Source: Arcobacter acticola | GTDB taxonomy: Bacteria > Campylobacterota > Campylobacteria > Campylobacterales > Arcobacteraceae | NCBI RefSeq assembly: GCF_013177675.1 | Contig: NZ_CP042652.1 | Coordinates: 2,790,001 to 2,854,000 of the forward strand | Length of the DNA stretch: 64,000 bases | Direction of reading: 5' to 3' | Shown here: in pieces, positions 35,958-39,930 of the stretch | How the letters are laid out: every line of letters starts with the position of its first letter | Position numbering within the stretch: position 1 is the stretch's first letter | The notes under the pieces: generated by a model | Told to the model about the DNA's origin: nothing | Database searches by the model: none | Seen by the model: the letters and a program-made list of their open reading frames with translations, nothing else | Translations under genes and position numbers: made by a program

Positions 35958-37082
35958 ATGAATTGTGAATATTTTGGTAAATGTGCTTCATGTACACTAT
36001 ATGATAAAAACTATGAAGAGCAACTAGACTTCAAAATACAAAGGGAAAAAGAAAGATTTTCAAACTTTACATCTATGGATTTTGACATTATAAAAAGTGA
36101 AGATAAAGCTTTTAGAAATCGTGCAGAGTTTAGAATTTGGTGGGAAAATGATGAAAATGGAAATCATACTATTTCATATGCTATGAATGATTTTAATAAA
36201 AATATATTAGAAATAGACTCATGTCAAATAGTAAGTCCTCATATTCAAGAAGTTATGCCAAAACTTTTAGAACTTATAAGTAAAGAAAAAGAGCTTGAAG
36301 ACAAACTTTTCGCAGTTGAATTTCTAGGAAGCACAACAAATGACCTACTTGTAACTTTGATTTACCATAGAAAACTAGGTGAGGCATGGAATATTCTTGC
36401 AAAAGAGCTTGAAAGCAAAGTAAATATCAAAATCATAGGAAGAAGTAGAAAACAAAAACAAATCATAAGTGAAGATTTGATTTCAGAAAAACTAAATATA
36501 AACAACAAAGATTATAATTTTGAATATCAAGAAGGTGGATTTACTCAACCAAATACAAATGTAAATATTCATATGATTGAATGGGTTTTAAATAATATCC
36601 AAGACTCTTCAAAAGATTTATGCGAACTTTACTGTGGTGGTGGAAACTTTACAATACCACTTTCTACAAAGTTCAATAAAGTCCTAGCAACTGAAATCTC
36701 AAAAACCTCTATAAAATCAGCAAGAAGAAACTGTGAGTTAAACAATATCTCAAATATAGATTTTATTAGAATGAGTGCAGAAGAATTTGTACAAGGACTT
36801 CAAGGAGTACGAACTTTTGAAAGACTAAAAGATATAAATCTAAAAGATTATAACTTCGATACCATATTTATGGACCCTCCTAGAGCTGGACTTGATGATA
36901 TCACAAGAGCACTGGCAAAAGATTTTGAGCAAATAATATATATATCATGTAATCCAGAAACACTACATAGAGATTTACATGAACTAGTAAAAACCCATGA
37001 AATAGTGAACTTCGCACTATTTGATCAGTTTGCCTATACAAATCATATAGAAAGTGGAATAATTCTAAAAAAGACTAGATAA
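35958..37082 (+). CDS. trmA: tRNA (uracil-5-)-methyltransferase TrmA
   Basis: This 374-residue SAM enzyme forms 5-methyluridine 54 in tRNA. Visible are FRNRAEFRIWWEND (about 54-67), SAM-binding ELYCGGGNFTIPLS (about 221-234), DPPRAGLDD (about 312-320) and the nucleophilic cysteine in YISCNPETLHRDL. Length is near E. coli TrmA (366). The N-terminus carries an extra cysteine cluster (C3, C9, C12: CEYFGKCASC) absent from the E. coli enzyme. Confidence 0.93.
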   Translation: MNCEYFGKCASCTLYDKNYEEQLDFKIQREKERFSNFTSMDFDIIKSEDKAFRNRAEFRIWWENDENGNHTISYAMNDFNKNILEIDSCQIVSPHIQEVMPKLLELISKEKELEDKLFAVEFLGSTTNDLLVTLIYHRKLGEAWNILAKELESKVNIKIIGRSRKQKQIISEDLISEKLNINNKDYNFEYQEGGFTQPNTNVNIHMIEWVLNNIQDSSKDLCELYCGGGNFTIPLSTKFNKVLATEISKTSIKSARRNCELNNISNIDFIRMSAEEFVQGLQGVRTFERLKDINLKDYNFDTIFMDPPRAGLDDITRALAKDFEQIIYISCNPETLHRDLHELVKTHEIVNFALFDQFAYTNHIESGIILKKTR

Positions 37083-37121
37083 TTTAATCTAATTTTAAGA
37101 AATGGTATGTAATACTTTCAG

Positions 37122-37127
37122 TATAAA
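37122..37127 (+). promoter_or_regulatory. Probable -10 element of the flagellin gene
   Basis: TATAAA lies 133 nt before the flagellin ATG and about 7-10 nt before the first hairpin of the leader, so transcription would begin almost at that hairpin. I see no sigma-54 (GG-N10-GC) or sigma-28 match in the gap. Confidence 0.45.
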
Positions 37128-37132
37128 GATTA

Positions 37133-37230
37133 GGGACCAATGGGTTCCGAAGAGAAGAAAAACTTTCCTCTCTATGCTTGGGCCTTTGAAAAAAGAAGCA
37201 AGAAGGTTTTCGGAAGTGATTTAAAATCAC
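37133..37230 (+). ncRNA. Structured 5' leader of the flagellin mRNA
   Basis: The 177-nt gap before the flagellin gene is unusually structured. A GGGACC/GGTTCC hairpin with a 4-nt loop occupies 37133-37148. A stem with arms 37151-37160 and 37164-37173 has an AAC loop. TTCCGAA at 37145-37151 can instead pair at long range with TTCGGAA at 37209-37215. A palindrome GTGATTT-A-AAATCAC occupies 37216-37230. AAGGA at 37249-37253 is left free. It could stabilise or regulate flagellin mRNA, or yield a small RNA. It matches no riboswitch I know. Confidence 0.5.
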
Positions 37231-37259
37231 AATGTCGTCATATATAAAAAGGATTTATT

Positions 37260-38459
37260 ATGATTATCAATACAAATATCTCATCTCTTACTGCTCAAGA
37301 AGCATCAAAAAACACAAATAACACTCTTTCAAGTTCATTAGAAAAACTTTCTACTGGTCTTAAAATAAACAAAGCGTCTGATGATGCATCTGGTTTAGCA
37401 ATTGCTGATAAACTAAGAACTCAAGTAACTTCTATTAATCAAGGTGTTGCAAATGGTAACTCAGCAGTTTCTTTACTTCAAATTGCTGATAAATCAATGG
37501 CTGAACAATCAACTATTCTTGATACTATTAAAGCTAAATTAATTCAAGCATCAACTGATACTACTTCTGCAGAAGGTAGAGAAGCTATCAAAAATGATGT
37601 TCAAAAATTATTAACTCAACTTGATAATATTGCAGAACAAACTAATTATAATGGTATGGATTTATTAAATGGAAATTCGTTTTCATTCCAAGTAGGAGAA
37701 GGGGCAACAGATACAATTGTTGCAAAACCATCATCTGCTTCAAATACAAGTAGTTTAGGTAGTGCTGCAAATAATTTAACTGCAACATTAGTTCATACAA
37801 CAGGAGCTAACACGTCGACTGCTCAAGTAGACACTATAACATTTGGTGATGGTGGAGGGACATGGGCTGCTGGAGATACTGCATCAGTTCAAATTAAATC
37901 AGCAACATCTGATGAAACTTACACTTATTCATATACTGTAACTGCAGCAGATATTGCTGCTGATGGTACAACTGCTGTAGAAAACGCTGTAGGAACAGCA
38001 ATGATTGCATTGATTAATGTAGATACTGCAAGTCATGGTATTACTGCTGGTGGTACAAGTCCTGCTGTTACTCTTACTGCGGGAACTGCGGATGTAAGAT
38101 ATGAAAATACTTCTTCAGTAGGAAAATCTCTTTCTGGTTTAACTTCAGCGAATCTAGCAAATGATACTTTAACTTCTGCTGTTGCAAAAGATTATCAAAC
38201 AGTAGTTGATGGAGCTATTGATGGATTAAATAGTTTAAGATCTGAATTCGGTTCTACTCAAAACCAAGTTGAATCAGCTGTTAGAAACTTAATGACTCAG
38301 TCTACTAATTTAAGTGCCGCTGAATCTATTATTAGAGATGTTGATTATGCGGAAGAATCTGCAAACTTCAACAAACAAAACATTATTTCTCAAGCTGGTT
38401 CATATGCAATCAGTCAAGCAAATACTGTTCAACAAAATGTTTTAAAATTATTACAATAA
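37260..38459 (+). CDS. Flagellin
   Basis: This 399-residue protein is the filament subunit secreted by the flagellar export apparatus. The N-terminal D0/D1 domain (1-140: INTNISSLTAQEASKNTN, LSTGLKINKASDDASGLAIA) and C-terminal D1/D0 domain (about 315-399, ending SYAISQANTVQQNVLKLLQ) are well conserved. The middle (about 145-310) is a Thr/Ala/Ser-rich, surface-exposed variable region. Residues 88-96 (DTIKAKLIQ) replace the QRVRELAVQ type sequence recognised by TLR5. It is followed by a strong terminator. No second flagellin gene is in the window. Confidence 0.95.
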   Translation: MIINTNISSLTAQEASKNTNNTLSSSLEKLSTGLKINKASDDASGLAIADKLRTQVTSINQGVANGNSAVSLLQIADKSMAEQSTILDTIKAKLIQASTDTTSAEGREAIKNDVQKLLTQLDNIAEQTNYNGMDLLNGNSFSFQVGEGATDTIVAKPSSASNTSSLGSAANNLTATLVHTTGANTSTAQVDTITFGDGGGTWAAGDTASVQIKSATSDETYTYSYTVTAADIAADGTTAVENAVGTAMIALINVDTASHGITAGGTSPAVTLTAGTADVRYENTSSVGKSLSGLTSANLANDTLTSAVAKDYQTVVDGAIDGLNSLRSEFGSTQNQVESAVRNLMTQSTNLSAAESIIRDVDYAEESANFNKQNIISQAGSYAISQANTVQQNVLKLLQ

Positions 38460-38583: not shown

Positions 38584-38784
38584 ATGCAAAACAACACAAT
38601 CCCCCAAGACATTATAAAAATACAAAAAAAATTAGCTTTATTTGAGAAAGATTCAAGAAATTATAAAAAATATACAAAAATTCTTGCGAAGCATATAAAA
38701 ACATATACTATGAAAAAAAGAGTTAATGCTCATATTAAGACTATTGAGAGTATTGAAAAGATATCTCAAGAAGAAAGTAAATAA
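38584..38784 (+). CDS. Small basic protein of unknown function
   Basis: This 66-residue, lysine-rich, predicted all-helical protein (EKDSRNYKKYTKILAKHIKT) has no cysteine, signal or membrane segment. AAGG lies upstream of the ATG. It sits between the flagellin terminator and recA. I recognise no family. Coding use (A/T-ending codons) matches its neighbours, but short length keeps confidence moderate. Confidence 0.6.
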   Translation: MQNNTIPQDIIKIQKKLALFEKDSRNYKKYTKILAKHIKTYTMKKRVNAHIKTIESIEKISQEESK

Positions 38785-38880: not shown

Positions 38881-39930
38881 ATGGATGAGAATCAAAAAAA
38901 ATCATTAGACTTAGCAATTAAACAAATAGATAAAACATTTGGTAAAGGTACTTTAATCAGACTTGGAGACAAAGTTGTTGTTCCAACTGAAACTATTAGT
39001 ACAGGTTCTTTAGGACTTGATTTAGCACTTGGTGTTGGTGGTCTTCCAAAAGGAAGAGTTATTGAGATTTATGGACCTGAGTCATCTGGTAAAACTACAT
39101 TAACATTACATGCAATAGCAGAGTGTCAAAAAGCTGGTGGTGTTTGTGCATTTATTGATGCGGAACATGCTTTAGATGTTGTATATGCAAAAAATTTAGG
39201 TGTTGATACTGATAATTTACTTGTTTCACAACCTGATTTTGGTGAGCAAGCTTTAGAAATACTTGAAACAGTTATTAGATCAGGTGCTGTTGATTTAGTA
39301 GTTATTGACTCGGTTGCTGCTCTTACTCCAAAAGTAGAGATTGATGGAGATATGGATGACCAACAAGTTGGTGTTCAAGCAAGACTTATGTCTAAGGCTC
39401 TTAGAAAAATCACTGGTTTACTAAATAAAATGAACTGTACGGTTATTTTCATTAATCAAATCAGAATGAAAATTGGAATGACAGGTTATGGAAGTCCAGA
39501 AACAACGACAGGTGGAAATGCCCTTAAATTTTACTCATCTGTAAGACTTGATATTAGAAGAATTGCTACACTTAAACAAGGTGAAAATTCAATTGGGAAT
39601 AGAGTTAAAGTAAAAGTTGTAAAAAACAAGGTTGCTGCTCCATTTAAATTAGCTGAATTTGATATTATGTTTGGAGAAGGTATCTCAAAAACTGGTGAAT
39701 TGGTTGATTATGGTGTTAAACTTGATATCGTTGATAAAGCTGGAGCTTGGTTCTCTTACGGTGATTCGAAAATTGGTCAAGGAAGAGAAAACTCAAAAGT
39801 GTTCTTAAAAGACAATCCAGAAATAGCAACTGAGATTGAAAGAAAAATTTTAGAGTCAATGGGAATTAACGATGCTTTAATTAGTAGCACTTCAGATGAC
39901 CTTGAAGATGAATCAGAAATTGAAGAATAG
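38881..39930 (+). CDS. recA: Recombinase RecA
   Basis: This 349-residue recombinase drives strand exchange and DNA repair. Walker [11 protein letters not shown] (about 66-75), Walker [11 protein letters not shown] (about 140-149), the L2 loop [25 protein letters not shown] and the C-terminal acidic tail ([11 protein letters not shown]) are all present. Normal length, not interrupted by an intein. Monocistronic: terminator at 39956-39985. Confidence 0.98.

Follow-up and report, generated by a model that had tools for sequence, protein, structure and literature searches.

The window, a 64,000-nucleotide stretch of the Arcobacter acticola genome, contains a flagellin gene of 399 codons on the plus strand (37260–38459; Flagellin_N, E 4e-36; Flagellin_C, E 5e-27). 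Its 5' neighbour is a methyltransferase gene (35958–37082) that we take to be trmA-like, and a presumably recA-like gene (38881–39930) lies on its 3' side. Directly after the flagellin gene, on the same strand, is a gene for a small basic protein of 66 amino acids (38584–38784; 16 K+R, 7 D+E). Ahead of the flagellin gene are, in order, a promoter box TTAATCTAATTTTAAGAAATG with an extended -10-like element TGTAATAC after it (37084–37117, plus strand), a structured leader and the start region. The leader matches our model R1 from P1 to P4 (37126–37234, plus strand) with 107.2 bits and E 1.9e-19, a score to which the window's own copy contributed as a member of the R1 training set. A second R1 match in the window, on the minus strand at 649–770 (21.2 bits, E 0.039), is probably a chance match.

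The leader is built from short helices set between invariant junctions, all on the plus strand. P1 (37133–37148) has six pairs and the 4-nt loop AATG, is preceded by an invariant UA, and is the GGGACC/GGTTCC hairpin claimed in the initial annotation. An invariant GA (37149–37150) leads into P2 (AGAGA/UCUCU, 37151–37173), the second stem of that annotation, and an invariant AUG (37174–37176) follows. P3 (CUUG/CAAG with a downstream AANGU, 37177–37207; 37177–37180 pairs with 37199–37202) had been missed and is supported equally to P1 and P2. P4 (GUGAUUU/AAAUCAC, 37216–37230) is the 15-nt palindrome GTGATTTAAAATCAC that had already been recognized. The leader is also, as had been noted, enriched in G+C (approximately 0.35–0.42 vs approximately 0.18 in the gap immediately upstream). 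Folding energy is too weak to count as evidence for the leader, with z = -1.4 and 21 of 200 shuffles folding equally well; what raises the leader above chance is conservation and compensatory change.

The leader is widespread in Arcobacteraceae. A search with 37090–37290 matched 35 of 60 relatives, and the aligned flagellin upstream regions contain the near-invariant blocks UUAGG, UCCGAA, UAUGCU, and CAAGAA. Across 398 genomes of the order, a covariance model built on 31 copies hit 43, of which 37 belong to the family itself. We rejected the six weak matches in other families (E 0.012–0.096), five of which have no flagellin start behind them and the sixth of which (L090) falls below threshold. 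At E 0.01, the leader model matches 73 of 104 Arcobacteraceae genomes, which is a lower bound since two genomes missed by the model (G416 and G420) have a leader recognizable by eye. A flagellin-N match is found in 94 of the 104.

Compensatory change supports the three core helices. In a MAFFT alignment of 31 sequences, 94.2% of cells pair and double changes occur at 10 of 20 pairs, with a covariation score of 0.280 vs 0.121 after shuffling. A second comparison took, out of 91 cores (P1–P3), the 54 that are less than 90% alike, in an alignment based on sequence alone: compensatory changes occur at 11 of 15 pairs, 96.7% of cells are paired, and the score is 0.422, compared with 0.150 for shuffled cores and at most 0.110 for slid partners. 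By helix, the paired fraction in these cores is 98.1% for P1 (double changes at 4/6 pairs), 92.9% for P2 (5/5), and 99.1% for P3 (2/4), and, in the 31 sequences, it is 86.4% for P4 (2/5). RNAalifold predicts the identical 15 pairs. P4 varies widely in sequence among genera, and a hairpin is present in most tails folded. Across 89 cores counted after merging identical copies, the P1 loop reads RAUK in 85, and the third P1 pair stays weak, being GU in 63 and never G-C; the pattern used to pick cores fixes GG, CC, ATGC, and AGAA, so that invariance at those positions is partly built in, while the varying pairs are unaffected. We excluded a spurious start in L016 (minus strand, 526) and nine second flagellin copies lacking the motif. 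Taken together, these comparisons indicate that the leader is a genuine conserved folded RNA family ahead of flagellin genes across Arcobacteraceae. The core idea of the initial annotation, that flagellin has a structured leader with a probable regulatory role, is upheld: of the refuting outcomes which that annotation had named, absent conservation or covariation did not occur.

Its proposed switch, in which a TTCCGAA/TTCGGAA helix excludes the first hairpin, finds no support in the comparison of 91 copies: all seven pairs are possible in three copies, with a run of six in six more. Mutual information among the cores, computed with one core having a 3-nt P1 loop left out, is confined to the helices and adjacent columns. 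No pair beyond these stood out as a pseudoknot, and no alternative fold joining the core to the start site was found. We also considered and rejected a conserved reading frame upstream of flagellin. In the window, an ATG frame stays open across the leader, yet core lengths span all three residues modulo 3 and the longest closed frame varies among copies from fewer than 5 to 40–44 codons; this argues against conserved coding in the leader.

Leader copies are tied to flagellin genes. A flagellin start lies behind 79 of 81 family copies and behind 93 of 95 distinct copies in a wider set from which identical copies had been merged. One exception is at the end of a contig (L150). The other is an orphan copy (L068, 412–515) that lies behind a flagellin gene but is itself followed by none, and is perhaps the remnant of a lost array gene. 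In the tandem flagellin arrays of L075 (G411) and L071 (G032), a leader copy stands ahead of each gene, and those of L075 alternate between having the promoter box and lacking it. A box matching at 16 or more of 21 positions is found upstream of 73 of 93 copies, where the background rate is 0.013 per stretch of 70 bases. Among the other 20 copies, 15 lie 47–178 nt past a flagellin stop codon, three lie 9–15 nt past a small gene, and two have no upstream frame in the stretch fetched. Boxless copies are thus mostly in mid-operon, which favors control after transcription and suggests that a transcript may also carry the leader internally, barring promoters of another kind.

This placement, at the 5' end as well as between genes, could also be expected of an element that protects or matures the flagellin mRNA, tandem arrays included, without sensing anything. 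Flagellin needs abundant mRNA. A plain protective hairpin, however, would need neither invariant junctions nor a third P1 pair that is never G-C in 89 cores, and we regard such a stability or processing element as rather improbable.

The promoter box is conserved upstream of the leader and also precedes a flgK-like gene. The upstream-box pattern, allowing up to two mismatches, occurs in 23 of 37 genomes, and its reversed control in none. The box has, as a rule, one further occurrence per genome outside flagellin; at all 15 such loci examined, the next gene begins like flgK (hook-associated protein 1), and its leader is short and has no P1–P3 core. The box common to flagellin and flgK, TTAANCTAANNTTAAGAANTG, is seen at 37084–37117 in the window and at L136, L137, L139–L143, L145–L148, L152, L155, L156, and L160. 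It is possibly a stand-in for the sigma-28 class of late genes. Judged from the position of the box, transcription is predicted to start at approximately 37119–37125, upstream of all the hairpins. The TATAAA at 37122, which had been read as the promoter, falls where box-directed transcription would start; that reading is probably wrong, and the conserved box and -10 element at 37084–37115 would take its place.

Conservation of the box as DNA immediately upstream invites the view that the whole region is a promoter or binding site in which the hairpins are incidental. We consider this highly unlikely: the compensatory changes exceed those of both shuffled and slid controls, and the leader is retained where the box has been lost and in another neighborhood, after an rRNA operon (L015).

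The leader ends in a start region with a recurrent layout. In the window (37237–37262, plus strand), it comprises the Shine-Dalgarno site AAAGGA (37248–37253), a conserved spacer UUUAUU, and the AUG, over which a weak hairpin is possible; of 91 leader copies, 72 have GGAUUUAUU before the AUG. A 12-bp helix that masks the Shine-Dalgarno site occurs in 19 tails of the 81 distinct ones, all from one clade, with shuffle p values between 0 and 0.035. The other tails mostly have a 5–7-nt match to the start codon region that is mostly not significant, and over all 81 the median shuffle p is 0.245, with p ≤0.05 in 24. Masking is clear in the one clade and no more than suggested beyond it; in the window's own tail it is not significant (p 0.65). 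In the tails inspected, P4 has no long U run after it and so does not form an intrinsic terminator at the leader end. The U-rich strand opposite AAAGGA in the one clade could point to an RNA thermometer, a hairpin over the Shine-Dalgarno site that melts with temperature. Masking in 19 of 81 tails only, together with an Rfam search of the window and ten other loci that returned no thermometer and a P1–P3 core that melting would leave unexplained, makes this very improbable.

The usual flagellar regulators are largely missing from Arcobacteraceae. CsrA was found in none of 104 Arcobacteraceae genomes but in 18 of 23 from other families, and FliA passed the cut-off in 0 of 37, again vs 18 of 23. 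RpoN is present in 11 of 37, including the window's genome (19 of 23 elsewhere), and FliW in 31 of 37 (19 of 23 elsewhere). We therefore rejected CsrA and FliA as leader regulators, both being absent from the family genomes searched, and RpoN as a general explanation, being present in just 11 of 37. FliW was also set aside as the leader's partner since it was not found in five leader-bearing genomes (G009, G021, G023, G029, and G034). FliW is retained without its usual partner CsrA at G000:C1:406861-407166, outside the window, and in 30 other genomes among the 37. The absence of CsrA and FliA leaves a gap in known flagellin control. The A. butzleri genome paper (PMC2147049, 2007) reports that RpoN and FliA are lacking and that flagellar control is possibly "a completely novel system". 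The leader is a good candidate for the missing flagellin control element in a family without the usual factors.

The small basic protein encoded beside the flagellin gene accompanies the leader across the family. Its relatives occur in 81 of 104 Arcobacteraceae genomes, and six g31 genomes encode a 64–66-residue basic protein between the promoter box and the leader. At 31 loci chosen by the analyst rather than at random, its neighbors include recA in 20, flagellin or the leader in 13, and both in two, the window being one of them. Among the 104 genomes, with three unlisted ones placed by elimination, leader and protein occur together in 70, the leader only in 3, the protein only in 11, and neither in 20. 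This association has a Fisher p of 8e-11, or 8e-6 within the 94 flagellin genomes, both values taking no account of phylogeny. The three leader-only genomes (G005, G016, and G438) are each less than 90% complete, and two of the protein-only genomes are G416 and G420, which do carry a leader when inspected by eye. Ten of the 94 flagellin-bearing genomes have neither leader nor protein, showing that flagella can do without the leader. No genome of genus g2 appears among the matches listed for the protein, and by eye, the leader is absent from six g2 flagellin-like upstream stretches (five in G031 and G452, one in G454). The protein has no Pfam or NCBIfam match over the cut-off; prediction from the single sequence folds it into a short helix and a long one (pLDDT 90.8), for which a PDB fold search gave nothing at E 0.001 or better. 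It has likely been missed by annotation lists that start at 80 amino acids. Its position and co-occurrence make it the best candidate for a partner of the leader.

We consider it fairly probable that the leader is a cis-acting, flagellin-specific RNA of Arcobacteraceae that acts post-transcriptionally, with a core bound by a trans-acting factor and an output in P4 and the start region. P1–P3 and their invariant junctions (UA-P1-GA-P2-AUG-P3-AANGU) would form the recognition core, and the factor would more likely be a protein than a small molecule. Binding would determine how accessible the Shine-Dalgarno site and start codon are, or how stable the mRNA is, in response to a signal that may be hook completion or unexported flagellin. 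This reading is favored by the covariation against shuffled and slid controls and its agreement with RNAalifold, by the placement at flagellin genes with an own copy for each tandem gene and with boxless copies, by the anti-Shine-Dalgarno helix of the one clade and the recurrent start-region spacer, and by the gap in known control that the missing CsrA and FliA leave. It is disfavored by masking that is not general, by a search that found no alternative fold between core and start site, and by the ten flagellin-bearing genomes without a leader. We judge post-transcriptional action likely, with translational control as our best guess. Ribosomal-protein and other protein-binding mRNA leaders place a compact conserved fold directly ahead of the start codon, in genes of one kind. 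The leader, too, combines a covarying fold with one kind of gene, but it serves flagellin, and its binder is a candidate only.

Three short helices surrounded by numerous invariant unpaired positions, close to a start codon, are also what one would look for in a riboswitch, whose P1–P3 core would bind a small molecule, for example, a motility second messenger, and gate translation. Riboswitches that sense signalling molecules mostly control several different genes. Here, 93 of 95 copies are at flagellin genes, no Rfam class matches in the window or at ten other leader loci, and no alternative pairing to the start site was found, and we hold a riboswitch to be unlikely. Returning to a protein-bound leader, we tentatively entertain, as less likely than not, a more specific version, in which leader and small protein (38584–38784) constitute a flagellin checkpoint that replaces sigma-28 and CsrA: core binding would gate translation, the shared box would time flagellin and flgK, and FliW may feed in.

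Comparable systems exist in other bacteria. According to PMC4894983, the flaA mRNA of Campylobacter jejuni, from the same order, likewise has a structured flagellin leader under post-transcriptional control by an RNA-binding protein, within a CsrA-FliW system of which Arcobacteraceae share FliW. There, however, CsrA binds GGA in two stem-loops, whereas in Arcobacteraceae CsrA is absent and the core helices contain no conserved GGA, the sole regular GGA being that of the Shine-Dalgarno site. For Caulobacter and Brucella, PMC4347634 describes FlbT as a flagellin-specific factor proposed to bind the flagellin 5' UTR; this is similar in kind, but belongs to another lineage, and the candidate protein of Arcobacteraceae has no Pfam match over the cut-off. 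A flagellin RNA element without CsrA would show that post-transcriptional flagellin control can be rebuilt from different parts, and the covarying leader RNA and the conserved small basic protein beside it provide two testable handles.

The leader family may be new to description. Against Rfam 15, no family reached its gathering cut-off in the window, with only chance-level matches (E up to 10) in 36900–37400, and at ten other leader loci, the only matches were to rRNA, in L015. Searches of open-licence PubMed Central listed no work on an Arcobacter flagellin leader. A structured-RNA screen of Arcobacter sp. L covered 38 intergenic regions, and its main text states that most novel regions were confined to Arcobacter and left unnamed (PMC6429828); 'flagell' does not occur in that main text, whose tables are in supplements. 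The flagellin leader could be among these unnamed regions. Thus, we did not find the family described in Rfam or the open-licence literature, although the supplements of PMC6429828 may hold it unnamed. The exact core pattern had 0 matches in viral contigs. It was found in 14 stretches of genome contigs (Arcobacter, Aliarcobacter, Campylobacteraceae, and Epsilonproteobacteria), and one unplaced 'bacterium' MAG also has it.
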